From assembly GCA_026393855.1 (NCBI GenBank), contig JAPKZJ010000014.1:1-47137 (forward strand): DNA of 47,137 nucleotides. The letters run 5' to 3'. The notes beneath the pieces were generated by a model. That model was not told the DNA's origin. It was given only the letters and a program-made list of their open reading frames with translations, and made no database searches. How positions within the stretch are numbered: the stretch's first letter is position 1; every line of letters begins with the position of its first letter. The DNA is from Candidatus Aminicenantes bacterium. GTDB taxonomy: Bacteria; Acidobacteriota; Aminicenantia; Aminicenantales; UBA4085. Shown piece by piece: positions 11,012-44,853 of this stretch. Made by a program: the position numbers and the translations under genes.

Positions 11012-12082
11012 ATGACTCCCGGAAACGCACGACTCAAGCTGCTGGACCGCTACTTGACTCTTTGGATATTCGCGGCCATGGCCGCCGGCGTCGCCCTGGG
11101 CTATTTCGTCCCGGCCGTCGTCGGGTTCATCAACAAATTCCAATCGGGGACGACCAACATCCCTATCGCCATAGGCCTGATCCTGATGATGTATCCGCCC
11201 TTGGCCAAAGTGAAGTACGAAGAGCTCGGCGACGTTTTCCGCAACGGCAAAGTTCTGGCCCTGTCGCTTGTCCAGAACTGGGTCATCGGCCCAATCCTCA
11301 TGTTCGCCCTGGCCGTGATCTTCCTGCGCGGCTACCCCCATTACATGTACGGGCTGATCATGATCGGCCTGGCCCGATGCATCGCCATGGTCATCGTCTG
11401 GAACGAATTGGCCCACGGCGACACGGAATACGCGGCCGGCCTGGTCGCCTTCAACTCGATCTTCCAGGTCCTGTTCTTCTCGGTCTACGCCTACGTCTTC
11501 ATCACGGTCCTGCCGGGCTGGTTCGGATTGAAAGGCACGGCCGTAGCCATCACCATCGGTGCGATCGCCAAAAGCGTTTTCATATACCTGGGCATTCCCT
11601 TCCTGGCCGGTATCATTACCCGGTTCACGATGCTCAAGCTCAAGGGCAAAGTCTGGTACGAAACCAAGTTCATCCCCCGCATCAGCCCCATCACCCTGAT
11701 CGCCCTGCTGTTCACCATCGTGGTCATGTTCTCGCTCAAGGGCGAGTTCATCGTCAAGATTCCGCTCGACGTCCTGCGGATCGCCGTGCCGCTCGTCCTC
11801 TACTTCGTCATCATGTTCATGGTCTCGTTCTTTATGAGCCGGAAGATCGGAGCCGGGTATCCGGTCACGGCGACCCTGTCCTTTACCGCGGCCAGCAACA
11901 ACTTCGAGCTGGCCATCGCCGTGGCCGTGGCCGTCTTCGGCATCAACTCGGGCGAGGCCTTCGCCGCCGTCATCGGCCCGCTCATCGAGGTGCCGGTGAT
12001 GATCGGGCTGGTCAACGTGGCCTTGCGACTTCGGAAACGCTATTTCGCCGCCCGGGCCGGGACAGAAAGGACGCCGGCATGA
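11012..12082 (+). CDS. ACR3-family arsenite efflux transporter
   Basis: 356 residues, ten membrane segments. Family signatures include [19 protein letters not shown] (~124-142) with the essential Cys, and [20 protein letters not shown] followed by [13 protein letters not shown] near the C-terminus. ACR3 proteins export arsenite using the proton gradient. ATG 11012 is preferred over GTG 11009 because AGGAGG lies 6 nt upstream. The stop overlaps the methyltransferase start by 4 bp. This gene fixes the arsenic identity of the operon. Confidence 0.92.
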
Positions 12083-12897
12083 TCTCCCTTCGGTCCGCGC
12101 TCCCAAGTCATCGGATCGGAATCACTCTCGTTTTCCTCGCTTTGTGCGGCGCCATGTCGTCCTGCCAAGCCGACAAGGCTCCCCCCGCGTCCAACGGCAT
12201 GAAGTATACGGCTGAGGAGATGGATCGCATCTCCCAGACGCTCTTTAAGCCCATCTACGTTCATCTCGCCCAGCAAATCCAGCGTGATTATCAAATCAAA
12301 AGCGGCGTCTGTATCGAAGCAGGGTCGGGCTCCGCGTCCTGGGCCATCGAGATCGCCAAATCTTCGGATCTAAAAGTGACCGCGGTCGATATCGATCCCG
12401 CGGCCGTCAAGCTGGCCCGCAAAAACATCCGCCGGGCCGGTGTTTCCGCCAAGGTCGAAGCCCTCGAAGCGGATGTCGCAAAAATGCCCTTCCCCGACGA
12501 TTACGCGGACATAGTCGTCAGCCGCGGGTCCTATATGTTCTGGAAGGACAAGGTCAAAGCCTTCGCTGAAATTCGACGCGTGCTTAAACCGGGCGGCCTC
12601 GCCTACATCGGGGGCGGGCTGGGAAACATGCTTCCCCCGGCGGATCGCGAGCACATCCGTGACGTCATGGCCAAGGAGAATATCGGCCCCCCGCCCGAGC
12701 TGGAAGTCGGGTTCGAGGAGATGGGCAAAATCCTTCGGGCCGCGGGCATCAACCTCTTCCGGCTGGCGACCGATGAAAGCTGTCTTTGCGGTCTATGGGT
12801 GGAGTTTCGCAAGCCGACGAAATCGATCGATTCCGGCCGGGGCGACAAAATTGCCGCTTCCACTGACGCCGTTCGGAAGGATACGGAGGGACTTTGA
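12079..12897 (+). CDS. Class I SAM-dependent methyltransferase with lipoprotein-like signal
   Basis: 272 residues. A Rossmann methyltransferase domain starts near residue 80: [14 protein letters not shown] (SAM loop), [14 protein letters not shown] (acidic ribose contact), [18 protein letters not shown], and a [13 protein letters not shown] strand. A CLC pair occurs near residue 235. Oddly, the first 30 residues form a signal peptide ending in MSSC, a lipobox, which would place the enzyme outside the cytoplasm away from SAM. Translation from ATG 12199 would give a cytoplasmic enzyme but has no Shine-Dalgarno. It is coupled to the ACR3 gene by ATGA. Arsenical methylation is tempting, but the classical ArsM cysteine pattern is not seen. 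Confidence 0.78.
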
Positions 12898-12945: not shown

Positions 12946-14253
12946 ATGGGTGAGGGCGGACGTAATCGAGAGGAGCCCGCGCCCCGGCCGGCCGCGGCCG
13001 GCGCGGATCATCCCACGCCCCGCCGTTTCTTGAGAGCCGGCGGCGGCCGGATCGTCCTACCGGCCGACTTGGTCAAGAAGCTCGGCACCTCGCTCGGCGC
13101 CCGCCTGGAAGTTCGAGAGCGAGACGGCCGACTCGAAATCCGGCCCAACATCCATAGCCTTTCCCGTCTCTATGTCGAGCCGACGTCCCGCTGCAACCTG
13201 GCCTGCCGCACCTGCATCCGGAATACCTGGAGGGAGCCGCTGGGCGACATGCCCTGGCCGCTCTTCCAGCGCCTCACGGCGCAGCTTGCCGATTTGCCCC
13301 ACCTGGAATCGGTCATGTTCGCGGGCTTCGGCGAGCCGACCGCTCACCCGGACATCCTGCGCATGATCCGGGCCGTCAAGAGCCGCGGCCTACGGGCGGA
13401 GATTACCACCAACGGCACTTTACTCGACGGCCCGATGATCGACGGTCTGCGTCGGGCGGGCCTGGATATGCTCTGGGCCTCTTTCGACTCGGCGGGCGAG
13501 GCTGGATTTGAGGATATCCGGAGAGGAGCGAAGTTCGGGCCGGTCGTCGCCGCTCTGCAAGCGCTGCAAGCGGGGAACATCAAGAGCGAGCACCCGATTA
13601 AGGTCGGGCTGTCCTTCGTCGTCATGCGCCGCAACGTGGCCGATCTCGAGGCCCTGGACGAGCTGGCGCGCAGGGTCGGCGCGGACAGGGTGCTGGTCAG
13701 CAACATCCTCCCTTACTCGGCCGAGATGGAAAAGGAGATGCTCTGCGCCCTGACCCTGACCACGGAGTCGTTCGCCGCCGCCGCGGCCAAGACGGAAGTC
13801 CGCCTGCCGCGCCTGGACATCACGCCCGCTACACGCGAGACGATCCTGCGCCTTCTACGCGGGTACGAAAACTTAAATCTGATGGGCAACCCGATCTTCG
13901 CCGAGACGAACTACTGCCGCTTCGTCGAAGACCGGACTTCGTTCATCCGCTGGGACGGCGCCGTGGCGCCCTGCATGGGCCTGCTGCACGGATACAAGAC
14001 GTTTCTTTACGGATACGAAAGGAATGTCAAACCCCATGGTTTTGGGAATATCGACCGTAATACTCTGAGCTCCGTCTGGAGATCTTCATCTTATCAAAGC
14101 TTCCGGGAGAGGGTTCGCGAATTTGACTTCGCGCCCTGCCATATCTGCGGGGGGTGCAATATGCTCGAAAACAACGAGGAGGACTGCTTGGGGAACGTCT
14201 TTCCCACCTGCGGCGGCTGCCTCTGGGCACAAGGCATCATTCAGTGCCCCTAG
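12946..14253 (+). CDS. Radical SAM/SPASM maturase, tungsten-cofactor-oxidoreductase maturase type
   Basis: 435 residues. An AbrB/SpoVT-like strand-rich domain (LRAGGGRIVLPADLVKKLG) occupies ~26-65. The radical SAM core follows with CNLACRTC (CX3CX2C, ~84-91), FAGFGEPTAHPD and EITTNGTLLDG. The C-terminus is Cys-rich (CHICGGCNM, NNEEDCLG, TCGGCLWAQGIIQCP), an extended SPASM auxiliary-cluster region. The order and ending match my memory of the maturase found beside tungsten aldehyde:ferredoxin oxidoreductases (TIGR04317-like). No such oxidoreductase is in this window. GGGAGG precedes the ATG. Family assignment from recall. Confidence 0.75.
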   Translation: MGEGGRNREEPAPRPAAAGADHPTPRRFLRAGGGRIVLPADLVKKLGTSLGARLEVRERDGRLEIRPNIHSLSRLYVEPTSRCNLACRTCIRNTWREPLGDMPWPLFQRLTAQLADLPHLESVMFAGFGEPTAHPDILRMIRAVKSRGLRAEITTNGTLLDGPMIDGLRRAGLDMLWASFDSAGEAGFEDIRRGAKFGPVVAALQALQAGNIKSEHPIKVGLSFVVMRRNVADLEALDELARRVGADRVLVSNILPYSAEMEKEMLCALTLTTESFAAAAAKTEVRLPRLDITPATRETILRLLRGYENLNLMGNPIFAETNYCRFVEDRTSFIRWDGAVAPCMGLLHGYKTFLYGYERNVKPHGFGNIDRNTLSSVWRSSSYQSFRERVREFDFAPCHICGGCNMLENNEEDCLGNVFPTCGGCLWAQGIIQCP

Positions 14254-34687: not shown

Positions 34688-35293
34688 ATGCTCCCGACCC
34701 GCAAGGCGACGACCTGGCTTCTGGCGGTCCTATTGGCCGCGGGAAGCGTTTTCGGGCAAAGCATGGTCGAGACCGCGAAGAAGGAAAAAGAACGGCGGGA
34801 AGCCGCCAAAAAGGGCACGACGACCGTCGTCACCAACGCCGACCTCGGCCGGACCAAAAAGAAGGCGGCCATGGTCGTGGTCCGGGAAGGGGCGCCCGCC
34901 GCCGACGCGGAAGAAAGAATCGCGCCGGGGGACAAGCCCCGCCCGTCGGCAGTCGCCGCGCCGAGCGCCGTCCCGGACCCCAAGGCCGGGGCCGAAGTCC
35001 TATCGGAGGCCGCCGTCGATTTCAACCAAAAAAAATCGGAATTGCAGACGGCCAATGATAAGGCCCAGGAGCGGGCCGAGCTGCTGGACCTCAAGATGAG
35101 GGCGCTCAATCAGCAGTTTTTCACCTTCAACAGCATGGCCAGCAAAGACCAGATCCAGAAGGCGATCGCGGAAACCTATCAGAAGCTGCAGGACGCCCAG
35201 GCCGAGGCGACCAAGGCCAAGGCGGCGCTGGAACAGTTCCTCAACCAGGCCGCCTCGGCCAAACAGGCTCCGATCTGGATCAAGAAGCCCTAG
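34688..35293 (+). CDS. Exported coiled-coil protein of unknown function
   Basis: 201 residues. Signal peptide (WLLAVLLAAGSVFGQ), then charged low-complexity sequence rich in Lys/Glu/Ala (EKERREAAKKG) and a long C-terminal coiled coil (AQERAELLDLKMRALNQQFF ... EATKAKAALEQFLNQ). Likely periplasmic. ATG 34688 is chosen because the signal peptide starts there and the promoter is just upstream. It is convergent with the lipoprotein gene, overlapping it by 4 bp. Confidence 0.75.
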   Translation: MLPTRKATTWLLAVLLAAGSVFGQSMVETAKKEKERREAAKKGTTTVVTNADLGRTKKKAAMVVVREGAPAADAEERIAPGDKPRPSAVAAPSAVPDPKAGAEVLSEAAVDFNQKKSELQTANDKAQERAELLDLKMRALNQQFFTFNSMASKDQIQKAIAETYQKLQDAQAEATKAKAALEQFLNQAASAKQAPIWIKKP

Positions 35294-36156
35294 CGATAAT
35301 AGATCAGCCCAACCATAACTCCCAATTCGCGGCCGTCCTTGGAATTGGGGATAACCTTGGCCGGAACGAACGGCTTATCGACGGCGATCGTCAGGATGAA
35401 CTCGTCCTTGTCCCCGACCATCTCCTTCTTGATGGTATAGGTCTTCTCGAAGATCGCTTCCTGGGGGATGAACTCGTCGAACGGCAGGCCGTTGATCCGG
35501 AAGGAGATCTTCTGGTCCTTGACGATCTCCTTGTTGGTCCCGCCTCGGATCACCAGCAAAGCGTCCCGCTTGGGGTTGTCGACGACGCAAGCCGCTTCCT
35601 TGGCCGTCCAGCGCCATTGCTTCAGGGGGGAGTTCTGATCGGATTCCAGGTCGTACCAGCCGCTCTCATAGATGACTTCCGGCGTCCCGAGGGGCGGCGG
35701 GGTGACCTTGAGCTTCTTGGACAGGACTTCGCGCTGGGCGTTCCCGGTCCGATCGAAGGGGTTATAGAACCCGACCGACAGGCGGAGGGTCTCCTCGCCT
35801 TTGAAGGAGGGATCGAACTCGTCGATGAACTTGGGCAGGAAGACCCGCCGACGGATGATGTATTCCTTGCCCTTCTCCCATTTCGAAGTGGGCACGTCGG
35901 GGACGTAATCGTCCTGGACGATGAGATTGGCGTTGTGCCAGAAATGGACGAAGACGCTGTAATCCCTATCCAGGGGCTTGAAATCGCCCGAAGTCTTCCA
36001 GGTGTAGACCACGTCGGTGATCAGGTTGTCGGAGAGCTTCGCCTCGCCGAAGGAGACGCCGAGCCCGACCCCCTGGACTTGAGTCTTCTTCTGGCAGGCG
36101 AACGCGGCCAGGGCGACGAGGCCGACCGCGACGAATAGGCGCAGATGACGCTTCAT
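35290..36156 (-). CDS. Lipoprotein with a C-terminal beta-domain shared with the radical SAM protein
   Basis: 288 residues. The signal peptide ends in LAAFAC (lipobox, Cys-21). The first domain (~30-155) is strand-rich. The second starts with YESGWYDLESDQ and ends with SKDGRELGVMVGLIYYR; the same start and end motifs occur twice in the radical SAM protein at 38947. Function unknown. AGGAGG precedes the ATG, with a good promoter at 36187-36215. Confidence 0.78.
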   Translation of the reverse strand: MKRHLRLFVAVGLVALAAFACQKKTQVQGVGLGVSFGEAKLSDNLITDVVYTWKTSGDFKPLDRDYSVFVHFWHNANLIVQDDYVPDVPTSKWEKGKEYIIRRRVFLPKFIDEFDPSFKGEETLRLSVGFYNPFDRTGNAQREVLSKKLKVTPPPLGTPEVIYESGWYDLESDQNSPLKQWRWTAKEAACVVDNPKRDALLVIRGGTNKEIVKDQKISFRINGLPFDEFIPQEAIFEKTYTIKKEMVGDKDEFILTIAVDKPFVPAKVIPNSKDGRELGVMVGLIYYR

Positions 36157-38946: not shown

Positions 38947-40611
38947 TTGACTCTTCCCGACGATCGGCCGGACGACAAGCCCGTCGCGACGCCGACGGTT
39001 CGATACGGCCGCGGTTTCTATGGCTGGGAAAATCAGGACATCATCCCTTTCCGCTGGATGAGCCGCGAAGCGGAGATTTTCGTCGCCGGCCCCGGCTCGC
39101 CCGACACCCGCTGCCTGACCCTGGCCGTCAAGCATCTATTCGCCGATCAGCAGGCGCCTAGGCTGGAAGTCTTTCTCGACGGCCGATCCCTCGGGCAAGC
39201 CGTCGTCCCGACGCAATTCACGACGCTGTTCTTCCCTTTCTCGTTTCCGGCCGGCGGGGAGATCCCCTTCACCCTCCGGCTGGACCGGACCCATTCCGTG
39301 CCCGGCGACGGGAGGATCCTGGGCATCATGGTCCAGGCCGCCGCCGTGATCGCGGCCGGGACGCAGGACGATCCGGTCTACGGCGCCGGATGGCACGGCT
39401 GGGAGACGGAGGGCTATTCGACGTTCCGCTGGATGGGCCGCCGCGGCGAAATCCTGCTGCCTTGGAAACAGGTTCGAGCGCACCACTATCTGACCATCCC
39501 CGTGTTTCTGGACTTTCCCGACATCGATCAGAAGCTGACTTTGTCATACCGGGGCAGTCCCGCGGCGGAATGGCCGGTCATCCAAGGCTGGGGCTATGGC
39601 AGCTACGATCTGGCCTTGCTGCGGCAGCAGGATCGGGGCGAATCCGATATCCCTCCCGTCATCGAGCTGAGTGTCGACAGGCTTCACCCGGTTCAGCGCC
39701 ATGCCGGAGACGGACGCGAGCTGGGCGTTCGAATCGGCCCCCTGGAATTCCACGACGACGACGCCTGGCACGCCGATTCCGCCTTTTTCCGGGAGAACGC
39801 CCGCAAGAACTATGAAGAGATGAAGGCCGGGAAGACCGTGTTGAGCTCGTACCCCCTGAGCCTGGGCGTCGATCTCTTCGGTCGCTGCAACATCAGTCCG
39901 CCCTGCGTCTACTGCCTCTGGGACGGGATGAAGGAGATGGAGGGCGACCGCGTCGACGCGATCGTCGACGACGCGACACTGAAAGGCTACGGCCCCTTCT
40001 TCCGGTCGGCCCGATACCTGGTCAACTGTTCTTTCGGCGAGCCCTTGCTCCATCCCCGGCTGGCCGAAATCCTGAACGCCTGCGCCGAGCGGAAGAAGAT
40101 CATCGAGCTGTCGTCCAACGGGCAGGCCTTCACCGACCGGACGATCAAGGCCCTGGTCGGCAAGCCGGTCAATCTCTATATCTCGCTGGACGCAGCGACG
40201 CGGGAGACCTACGCCAAGATCCGCAACGACCGCTGGGACGACATCGTCCCCTCGCTTGTCCGGCTGAACGAAGAGCGGCAAAAGGCCGGCCGTCTCCCGC
40301 GCATTTATCTGGTTTTCATCCCGATGCGGGTCAACGCCGGCGACCTCGAGGAGTATTTCCGCCTGGCCCGGCGGATCGAGGCCGACAAGCTCGTCCTGCG
40401 GCCGCTGCTTCACCCGGCCAAGCCGAAGGCGCCGATCGATCGGGGCGGGTATCGCTTCGACTTCGCCCGGGAGCCGCTCGGCCGCAAGGAGCTCGAAGCG
40501 CTCTTCCGGGACGCCCAGCGGTTCGCTCAGCAGTATGGCGTCCCCCTGGCCAGCCAGTTCGACTTCGGCAAGCCGGCCCCCTCTCCATCCGGTAAGGAGG
40601 CCGCCTCATGA
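38947..40611 (+). CDS. Radical SAM protein with two N-terminal beta-domains
   Basis: 554 residues, TTG start. Two tandem domains come first: YGRGFYGWENQD to DGRILGIMVQAA (~19-135), then YGAGWHGWETEGY to DGRELGVRIGPL (~145-268). The radical SAM core begins GVDLFGRCNISPPCVYC, with Cys 314, 320 and 323, an unusual CX5CX2C spacing rather than CX3CX2C. SFGEPLLHPRLAEIL and SSNGQAF follow. The core ends at the barrel; a SPASM-like domain is the next ORF, coupled by ATGA. Sugar or peptide modification on the envelope side is a guess from the operon. Confidence 0.8.
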   Translation: MTLPDDRPDDKPVATPTVRYGRGFYGWENQDIIPFRWMSREAEIFVAGPGSPDTRCLTLAVKHLFADQQAPRLEVFLDGRSLGQAVVPTQFTTLFFPFSFPAGGEIPFTLRLDRTHSVPGDGRILGIMVQAAAVIAAGTQDDPVYGAGWHGWETEGYSTFRWMGRRGEILLPWKQVRAHHYLTIPVFLDFPDIDQKLTLSYRGSPAAEWPVIQGWGYGSYDLALLRQQDRGESDIPPVIELSVDRLHPVQRHAGDGRELGVRIGPLEFHDDDAWHADSAFFRENARKNYEEMKAGKTVLSSYPLSLGVDLFGRCNISPPCVYCLWDGMKEMEGDRVDAIVDDATLKGYGPFFRSARYLVNCSFGEPLLHPRLAEILNACAERKKIIELSSNGQAFTDRTIKALVGKPVNLYISLDAATRETYAKIRNDRWDDIVPSLVRLNEERQKAGRLPRIYLVFIPMRVNAGDLEEYFRLARRIEADKLVLRPLLHPAKPKAPIDRGGYRFDFAREPLGRKELEALFRDAQRFAQQYGVPLASQFDFGKPAPSPSGKEAAS

Positions 40612-40958
40612 GCGCGGAAAACGCGGCCCCTCCCGGACTCCCTCTCTGCCGCGAGCCTTGGGAGAATTTCTATATTCTGAGGCGCGGCATCCTGCCCTGC
40701 TGTTACGGGGGCGCCGTCATCGGCGAGATGGAGGATTACGCCGAGGTCTGGAACTCGCCCGAAATCCAGGAGATCAGGCGCTATCTGAGCCAAGGCAAGC
40801 TGGCTCCGTACTGCCTGGAAAACCCGGGCTGCCCCATCGTCCAGCGGGTCCTGGCACAAGGGGCGCAGGCTACGGAGAGCGCTCCGCCGGCCTCCTCACC
40901 CGCCCGCGGGCTCGGCGCGTCTCTCCGGCGCCTTTTTCCCCGAAAAACCGGCCGCTAG
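40608..40958 (+). CDS. Stand-alone SPASM-like domain protein
   Basis: 116 residues. LCREPWENFYILRRGILPCC (Cys 14, 31, 32), EVWNSPEIQEIRRYL and YCLENPGCP (Cys 69, 75) reproduce a SPASM auxiliary-cluster domain that normally sits at the C-terminus of the radical SAM chain. It overlaps that gene by 4 bp, so the two are likely made together and act as a two-subunit enzyme. The last 40 residues are Pro/Ala/Arg-rich. Confidence 0.75.
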   Translation: MSAENAAPPGLPLCREPWENFYILRRGILPCCYGGAVIGEMEDYAEVWNSPEIQEIRRYLSQGKLAPYCLENPGCPIVQRVLAQGAQATESAPPASSPARGLGASLRRLFPRKTGR

Positions 40959-42528: not shown

Positions 42529-44853
42529 ATGGTTTCCGAACGAGTCAAGCAAATCGGCGCCTCCCCGACGCTGCGCATCGCGGCCAAGGCCAAGGCGCTC
42601 AAGGCCGAGGGCATCGATGTCGTCGACCTGAGCATCGGGGAGCCGGACTTTCCGACCCCGGCCAACATCAAGGCGGCCGGGATCAAGGCCATCCAGGACA
42701 ACTTCACCAAGTACACCGAGAACGACGGCACGCCGGCCTTGAAGAAGGCCGTCCTGGCCCGCTTCAAGGAGGACTTCGGGCTGACCTACGCGCCCAACGA
42801 AATCATCGTCTCCTCGGGCGCCAAGAGCTCGCTGTACCATTTGATGCTGGCCTTGCTCGACCCCGGCGACGAAGTCATCATCCCGGTTCCCTACTGGGTC
42901 ACCTACCCCCACCAGGTCAAGCTGGCCAAGGGCAAGTCCGTCTATGTGGAGACCCGGGAGGAGGAGGGCTTCGTCCTGACCGCCGAAGCTCTCAAGGCCC
43001 ACATCACGCCCGCCACCAAGGCCGTCATCCTGAACTCGCCCTCCAACCCGACGGGAGCGGCTTACACCAAAGCCCAGCTCCAGGCGCTGGCCGACGTCGT
43101 CCGCGGCGAGGATCTCTATGTTGTGGCCGATGAGATCTATGCCTCGCTCGTCTACGACGATTTTCCGTTCACCAGCTTCGCCGCCCTGGGCGAAGACATC
43201 AAGAAGAAGACGGTTATCGTCAACGGCCCCTCCAAGTCGTATTCTATGACCGGCTGGCGCATCGGATACACCCTGGGCCCGGCCGACATCATCGCCGGCA
43301 TGGCCAAGATCCAGAGCCACACTACATCCAACGCGGCCTCGATGTCCCAGCGGGCCACCCAGGAGGCCGTCGCCGGGCCGCAGTTCGAAGTAGCCAAGAT
43401 GGTTCAAGAGTTCGGCCGCCGCCGCAACTACGCCCTGATGAAAATGCAGGCCATGCCCGGCGTCTCCTGCTTTAAGCCGCAGGGGGCCTTCTACCTCTTC
43501 CCAAACGTCAAGACCCATTACGACAAGGAATTCAACGGCACGCCGATCCGGAATTCCAACGGGATGGCCTATTACCTGCTGCGCGAAGCCGGCGTCGCCG
43601 TCGTCCCGGGGGATTCCTTCGGCGCCGACGACTACATCCGGCTGTCTTACGCCACCTCCATGGAGAACTTGGAGAAGGGGTTGGACCGCATCGGGCGAGC
43701 CCTGGCCCGGCTGCAGCCGGCCCGCCAGGCCAAGCGCATCGCTCTATCCAACTACGCGGCCCGGGTCCGCAGGCCGGTTCCCGTCGACGCCGGGCTGACG
43801 GTCGCCGTCCGCGACGGCCTGGTGGCCGAGGCCGAATCGCGCCTCGGCCTGGAAAACGCCTTCGAATGGAACGCGGTCATTAACGGGGTCGTCGTCCAGC
43901 TTCGGACCAACGTCGCCCACCTGAACGACTTCTGGGTCGATAACTGGTATCCGGCCCAGCTCGAGGCCGGCCTGGAGCCGCACGGGATCATCTACGCCGT
44001 GGACGGCATCCCAGGGCGCGAGCCGCGGGCCCTTTACAACACCGAGACCAAGACCGGCGTCCTGGTCAACTGCGACGCCTACGGCCCCCTGCGGAGCCTG
44101 GCCCTGGGGTTGGCGGCCGACGTCGGCGAGCGATCGTTCGGCGTCCACCCGGTCCGAGGGATGTCGGTCGACGCGGCGGGAGAAGGTTTGGCCCTGATCG
44201 GCCCTCCGGGAACGAAAAAAACCGATCTTTTCTTCGGGCTGCTGCGCGATCCGCGCTACCGGTTCCATGCCGGCGAGATTTTCTTCGTCCGTTACGCGGG
44301 CAAAGCCGCCCTGGCGGACGCAGTGGAGCGCAAGGCCTTTCTGCCCACCTCCGCGGTCGAGGTTTTCGGCCGCCTGGCGCCTTTATTCGACGGCAGCAAG
44401 TGCGAGAACGTCGTCCTTCACAAGGACGATTGCAAAGACGCCGTCTGCTTGCGGGGCGAGGACTGCCGGCTGGACCGGGGCGCCCCGTTCTGCTACAAGG
44501 CCGCCAAGGACGCGCACGGCCTGATCGATCCCAATTGGATCGCCGGCGCCCAAGCCGTCGTTAGGCGAACAACTCTGAAAAAGATCATCATCCTGCGCAA
44601 CGACAGCGTTTCTCCGGCGGTCGTCGAGCTGTCGCCCGAGGAGGCCCTGCACATTCTCGCCGCGGGCGAATGCCCGGGGATGAAAGCAGGCCTGACCGCC
44701 AAGCCGGCGCCGTTTTTCAACCCCCATCTCCTGGTCGCCGGGGCAGAACGCCTGGAGCTGCAACGGGCGGCTTTTCAGAGGCTTCTGCAGAGCGCTCGGG
44801 CCTGGTTGTTTAATAGCGGAGCCGCAGGGGTCGAAGCTCTCAAAGAACTCTAG
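42529..44853 (+). CDS. Class I aminotransferase fused to a P-loop (HprK-like) domain
   Basis: 774 residues, about twice the length of an aspartate/aromatic aminotransferase. Residues 1-396 form a complete class I enzyme: DLSIGEPDFPTP, NSPSNPTGAAYT, ADEIYASLVYD and the PLP-lysine segment SKSYSMTGWRIGY. Residues ~400-774 are a separate domain with LALIGPPGTKKTDLFFGLL (P-loop-like, ~553-571, with Lys-Lys-Thr) and two close Cys clusters (CENVV...DDCKDAVCLRGEDC). This part resembles HprK/PEPCK-type P-loop proteins only loosely. No frameshift is evident at the junction. Confidence 0.85.
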   Translation: MVSERVKQIGASPTLRIAAKAKALKAEGIDVVDLSIGEPDFPTPANIKAAGIKAIQDNFTKYTENDGTPALKKAVLARFKEDFGLTYAPNEIIVSSGAKSSLYHLMLALLDPGDEVIIPVPYWVTYPHQVKLAKGKSVYVETREEEGFVLTAEALKAHITPATKAVILNSPSNPTGAAYTKAQLQALADVVRGEDLYVVADEIYASLVYDDFPFTSFAALGEDIKKKTVIVNGPSKSYSMTGWRIGYTLGPADIIAGMAKIQSHTTSNAASMSQRATQEAVAGPQFEVAKMVQEFGRRRNYALMKMQAMPGVSCFKPQGAFYLFPNVKTHYDKEFNGTPIRNSNGMAYYLLREAGVAVVPGDSFGADDYIRLSYATSMENLEKGLDRIGRALARLQPARQAKRIALSNYAARVRRPVPVDAGLTVAVRDGLVAEAESRLGLENAFEWNAVINGVVVQLRTNVAHLNDFWVDNWYPAQLEAGLEPHGIIYAVDGIPGREPRALYNTETKTGVLVNCDAYGPLRSLALGLAADVGERSFGVHPVRGMSVDAAGEGLALIGPPGTKKTDLFFGLLRDPRYRFHAGEIFFVRYAGKAALADAVERKAFLPTSAVEVFGRLAPLFDGSKCENVVLHKDDCKDAVCLRGEDCRLDRGAPFCYKAAKDAHGLIDPNWIAGAQAVVRRTTLKKIIILRNDSVSPAVVELSPEEALHILAAGECPGMKAGLTAKPAPFFNPHLLVAGAERLELQRAAFQRLLQSARAWLFNSGAAGVEALKEL

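Follow-up and report, generated by a model that had tools for sequence, protein, structure and literature searches.

A probable two-subunit radical SAM/twitch enzyme with a CX5CX2C motif and N-terminal beta modules in a Candidatus Aminicenantes bacterium

The stretch of DNA analysed here, in the following called the window, comprises 47,137 nucleotides of a contig from Candidatus Aminicenantes bacterium and carries two overlapping open reading frames. ORF1 (38947..40611, +; 554 aa) starts with a TTG codon 24 nt past the rph gene, and TTG also stands at the aligned position in genome G002. It encodes, in a single chain, two beta modules followed by a radical SAM core. ORF2 (40608..40958, +; 116 aa) is a separate SPASM/twitch ORF that overlaps ORF1 in an ATGA. 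Its residues 14-69 match the SPASM profile PF13186 above the Pfam cut-off (E 3e-5), and together with the coordinates and reading frames this bears out the proposal of a first-pass annotation that a SPASM-type domain is encoded here as its own, ATGA-coupled ORF. Because a Shine-Dalgarno-like AAGGAGG (40594..40600, +) lies inside the end of ORF1, 7 nt ahead of the ORF2 ATG, ORF2 has an initiation signal of its own.

Residues 312-447 of ORF1 (39880..40287, +) match the Radical_SAM profile PF04055 above the Pfam cut-off (E 9.3e-9), and Foldseek hits to SuiB, TYW1 and viperin likewise place the barrel in this superfamily. The cluster motif CNISPPCVYC (39886..39915, +; residues 314-323, C314-NISPP-C320-VY-C323) departs from the canonical CX3CX2C and reads CX5CX2C. 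The five residues between the first two cysteines, to which the first-pass annotation had drawn attention, proved invariant in spacing across 17 aligned homologues, as did C314, C320 and C323 themselves, P318 and V321-Y322 ('PxCVYC'). Close relatives were also searched for a CX3CX2C motif, which had been named as evidence to the contrary, and none carries it: CX5CX2C is fixed in 20 of 20 family members and in seven more distant relatives, the close family having the form CN[IMV]xP[PH]CVYC and the distant seven the form CNxxPxCxxC, and CX3CX2C was seen only in a far relative (G275) and in an Azospirillum protein. Members of the superfamily that deviate from CX3CX2C are recognised (PMC4389238). 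The stretch NCSFGEP (40024..40044, +; residues 360-366) is a variant of the GGEP SAM-binding motif, and an extra cysteine within NCS[FI]GEP, Cys361 (40027-40029), just ahead of GEP, is invariant in the 17 aligned homologues. Cys361 is invariant also in DUF4214 relatives. In the AlphaFold2 model of ORF1, the cluster loop has low confidence. Among NCBIfam models, the core is best matched by TIGR04317 (W_rSAM_matur; E 9.5e-18), at 64.4 bits where the cut-off is 380.

SPASM enzymes with two auxiliary clusters carry a seven-cysteine motif. The ORF2 family does not display this motif, since five cysteines (C14, C31, C32, C69 and C75) are invariant among 12 aligned sequences. With five rather than seven cysteines, at most one auxiliary cluster is to be expected; judged by its sequence, ORF2 would have room for a single four-cysteine cluster at most, not two, and appears to stand nearer to twitch, a truncated SPASM domain that binds one auxiliary cluster (PMC9012708). 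We also considered a membrane-bound amphipathic tail of ORF2, which looked suggestive in genomes G093, G001 and G069 (shuffle p 0.004-0.015), and rejected it for the window's genus, where p was 0.097 and 0.74.

How widespread is this arrangement? A first homologue search covered 198 genomes of the phylum, about 142 of them from the window's class, and its class figures are a tally of strong matches. Close homologues were found in 17 of these roughly 142 genomes and in one genome outside the class, a patchy distribution to which a second search over 396 genomes of the phylum added two further homologues; no relatives were found among viral contigs. The split form is present in 15 genomes of the window's order, and in all 15 the SPASM ORF lies directly 3′ of ORF1. 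The junction varies from an overlap of about 20 nt to a gap of 83 nt, several having tens of intergenic bases and stops; G000, G002 and G042 have the ATGA overlap, and G076 has one similar to it. In the window, the barrel chain lacks an auxiliary domain, whereas four homologues (G098, G154, G340 and G483) are fused, with the same domain order and a hydrophilic linker of about 40-120 aa. G098 belongs to a sister family within the window's class, and the other three are found elsewhere in the phylum, including other classes. An AlphaFold2 model of the fused G098 protein reached a pTM of 0.82, with the linker (residues 427-451) disordered at a pLDDT below 50, and a fused homologue model was aligned by Foldseek with the SPASM/twitch enzymes SuiB, SkfB, BlsE, MoaA and anSME.

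The first-pass annotation had foreseen that fused homologues might expose the split as a sequencing error. Such homologues do exist, and they are what would be expected if a single gene had been broken in the assembly or were decaying; however, the split recurs in 15 genomes with varied junctions, ORF2 is preceded by a ribosome-binding site, and purifying selection acts on both ORFs, with dN/dS between the two closest genomes of about 0.33 for ORF1 and 0.29 for ORF2. The split homologues and the purifying selection rule out sequencing error, and the chance that error or decay explains the split is negligible. ORF1 and ORF2 very probably constitute a split SPASM/twitch enzyme.

Our main tree combined the radical SAM core with the SPASM domain and the last beta module. 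In it, every split form falls into a single clade (support 98/99); G098 is sister to this clade, and the remaining fused forms branch outside it. Because all split forms share this clade, they probably derive from a single fission of a fused ancestor gene, at the disordered linker. In a tree of the core alone, the fused G098 fell among the split forms, without support and leaving the question unresolved; it was the addition of the beta module and SPASM domain that moved it outside, and the one-clade test, with a p-AU of 0.053, was not relied on. Splits of SPASM have occurred more than once, since a group of distant relatives (G004, G081 and G145) and a plasmid of Azospirillum brasilense also have separate SPASM genes, and separate genes of this kind have already been machine-annotated elsewhere. 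By eye, the G397 protein (L076:5064-6536, -) shows yet another order, in which a radical SAM domain (CNIDPPCLFC) is followed by SPASM and then by a C-terminal beta-module-like domain.

The N-terminal half of ORF1 had been described from the sequence as two beta-domains, and AlphaFold2 indeed predicts confident beta-sandwiches at residues ~17-136 and 147-270. Module 1 (39004..39345, +; GFYGWE...FRWM ... DGRILG) and module 2 (39379..39750, +; GWHGWE...FRWM ... DGRELG) match the module profile with E 9.8e-34 and E 6.6e-37, respectively, and are homologous repeats whose copy number ranges from one to three among genomes. Foldseek places them, with low TM scores, close to glycosidase jelly-roll domains (GH2 and others) and to carbohydrate-binding modules; a sequence search of the PDB with the module profile found nothing. 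The same module forms the C-terminus (35293-35670; hhalign E 1.9e-15) of an envelope lipoprotein whose gene lies 2.8 kb upstream of the pair (35290..36156, -). Only three copies of the module were found in the window's genome, two in ORF1 and one in the lipoprotein, all inside the window. In G168, the module ends a PMT_2-like membrane glycosyltransferase, though the mannosyltransferase match is weak (E 2e-4, below the cut-off).

These modules could be read as protein-docking domains, perhaps able to pair with the module of the lipoprotein, in a maturase that modifies an amino-acid side chain of a protein or of a RiPP precursor. This would agree with the peptide-modifying enzymes SuiB and SkfB being the nearest folds in Foldseek, with the confinement of the genome's three module copies to ORF1 and the nearby lipoprotein, and with the position of the fused G098 gene, which shares its strand with the lipoprotein gene and lies 51 nt away from it. 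However, the likeness to SuiB reflects general SPASM architecture, similar scores being obtained for DesII and BlsE, which act on sugars, and profile searches of Pfam and NCBIfam returned no RRE or PqqD-like match in ORF1 or ORF2, nor was a precursor gene recognised in the neighbourhood. Moreover, nearly all genomes of the class encode the lipoprotein (134 of the 198 genomes searched), as against an enzyme present in about 17 of 142 genomes, and most class genomes without the radical SAM pair still have the beta-module lipoprotein, which weakens the case for a specific partnership between the two. We regard a peptide or protein maturase as rather unlikely.

With respect to gene neighbourhood, the genes lpxK, lpxL (a lipid A acyltransferase gene) and rph precede the pair in the window's genus, and in this genus only, and a flotillin-like gene follows. 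No neighbour was found to be constant across the family. In nine loci from several families, a dihydrolipoyl dehydrogenase gene (lpd) lies directly upstream on the same strand, overlapping ORF1 by 4 nt in G042 and G076, which would fit a redox or lipoyl-linked enzyme that uses this dehydrogenase as electron donor or substrate partner. However, lpd is a housekeeping gene, its orthologue in the window's genome (57% identical) lies on another contig, and the link may concern electron supply only and names no substrate, such that we consider this role improbable.

Another association, with convergent sulfatase-superfamily genes adjoining the pair downstream in seven genomes, brings to mind anSME, itself a SPASM enzyme, and hence an enzyme that would convert a cysteine or serine of neighbouring sulfatase-fold proteins to formylglycine. 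This role is very unlikely, because the sulfatases sit in a long conserved block, whose synteny extends into the nuo genes and makes adjacency weak evidence, and because the three neighbouring sulfatases that we read carry threonine at the nucleophile position (TLPSH, TVSSH) instead of cysteine or serine, and thus do not conform to the C/S-x-P/A-x-R pattern of anSME substrates. On these two grounds we rejected an anSME-like function. In addition, the window's genus lacks this adjacency, and CX5CX2C and only five SPASM cysteines are found here.

We therefore favor, at a probability of about 0.6, a cytoplasmic two-subunit radical SAM/twitch enzyme that most likely modifies a glycan or a glycan-bearing envelope precursor. 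After the split of a single-chain ancestor into two subunits, ORF1 and ORF2 would form a physical complex in which ORF2 would occupy the place on the barrel that its counterpart has in the fused enzymes, providing one auxiliary cluster in trans. As family precedent suggests, C314, C320 and C323 of ORF1 would bind the SAM-cleaving [4Fe-4S] cluster, and the 5′-deoxyadenosyl radical would take a hydrogen from the substrate. The auxiliary cluster may accept an electron or hold the substrate, by analogy with what has been proposed for BtrN and MoaA. More speculatively, the one to three jelly-roll modules would most likely hold the glycan or glycan-bearing envelope precursor, be it free, lipid-linked or protein-linked, and because they would hold that molecule, the chemistry would probably be its radical oxidation, epimerisation or rearrangement.

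The substrate is the more tentative part of this proposal: a glycan-type molecule is a plausible candidate, though we would put it at somewhat less than even odds. It is proposed mainly because the modules resemble jelly-roll domains and recur in the lipoprotein and the PMT_2-like protein. Indirect evidence in its favor comes from lpxK and the lipid A acyltransferase gene just upstream, and from glycosyltransferase or sugar-isomerase-like genes that adjoin distant relatives; the link is indirect because none of the adjoining genes is kept throughout the family. Against it, jelly rolls bind many things, and the Foldseek TM scores of the beta modules are low. A further and doubtful extension would be an obligately two-subunit class of enzymes, in which the auxiliary cluster comes in trans and an envelope precursor, either a glycan or a glycolipid, is held in place for radical modification by lectin-like repeats.

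With characterized SPASM/twitch enzymes (BtrN, MoaA, anSME, PqqE, SuiB), the pair shares the radical SAM barrel and a cysteine-rich auxiliary-cluster domain, as judged by fold and Pfam matches. It differs from them in its separate auxiliary gene, in CX5CX2C replacing CX3CX2C, in its five SPASM cysteines and in the N-terminal jelly-roll repeats. The CX5CX2C motif is common to ORF1 and the [Fe]-hydrogenase cofactor enzymes HmdB/HcgA (PMC4389238, PMC10100467). HcgA is said to resemble HydE, HydG and biotin synthase (PMC10100467); the 23 NCBIfam matches of the core at E up to 1 include no HmdB/HcgA-type family, and the shared motif may be convergent, because no HydE/HydG/biotin synthase-like model was matched. 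Within the literature searched, only four papers mention both CX5CX2C and radical SAM. A precedent for the gene arrangement is plasmid p5 of Azospirillum brasilense, where adjacent genes at L137:4926-6447 (+) encode a radical SAM and a separate SPASM protein (WP_137143739.1, WP_137143740.1), with a glycosyltransferase gene near. That pair has CX3CX2C, lacks N-terminal beta modules and is about 25% identical, and thus represents an independent split. The C-terminal domain of its SPASM protein resembles a beta module by eye, a likeness that hhalign did not confirm (E 0.09).

A literature search of titles and abstracts returned no paper describing SPASM as a separate polypeptide, and we found no earlier description of the combination of split SPASM, CX5CX2C and beta modules, though a separate SPASM gene and CX5CX2C each have precedent; our in-depth homologue search covered one phylum. 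The role that auxiliary clusters play in SPASM/twitch enzymes continues to be debated (PMC9012708). A natural separate auxiliary-cluster polypeptide could be omitted, re-added, swapped or mutated with the catalytic subunit still folded. Furthermore, the non-canonical CX5CX2C motif together with sugar-binding-like repeats may be a sign that an uncultured lineage carries out radical chemistry on glycans of a kind not yet described.

The tungsten-enzyme radical SAM maturase model TIGR04317, though the closest NCBIfam model to the ORF1 core, has a nearer counterpart in the window, a second radical SAM/SPASM protein (12946-14250, +) that is fused, carries CX3CX2C and matches the model with E 6.6e-87, below the cut-off. 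It comes after a methyltransferase ORF (11062-12897) and has DsbD, DGC-domain and Sulf_transp genes near, and the region may be a distinct gene cluster concerned with metals or sulfur. Lastly, a 774-aa ORF (42529-44853, +) encodes an aminotransferase in its first half, whereas its other 380 aa, without a Pfam match, contain a GPPGTKKTD stretch that is a P-loop look-alike.
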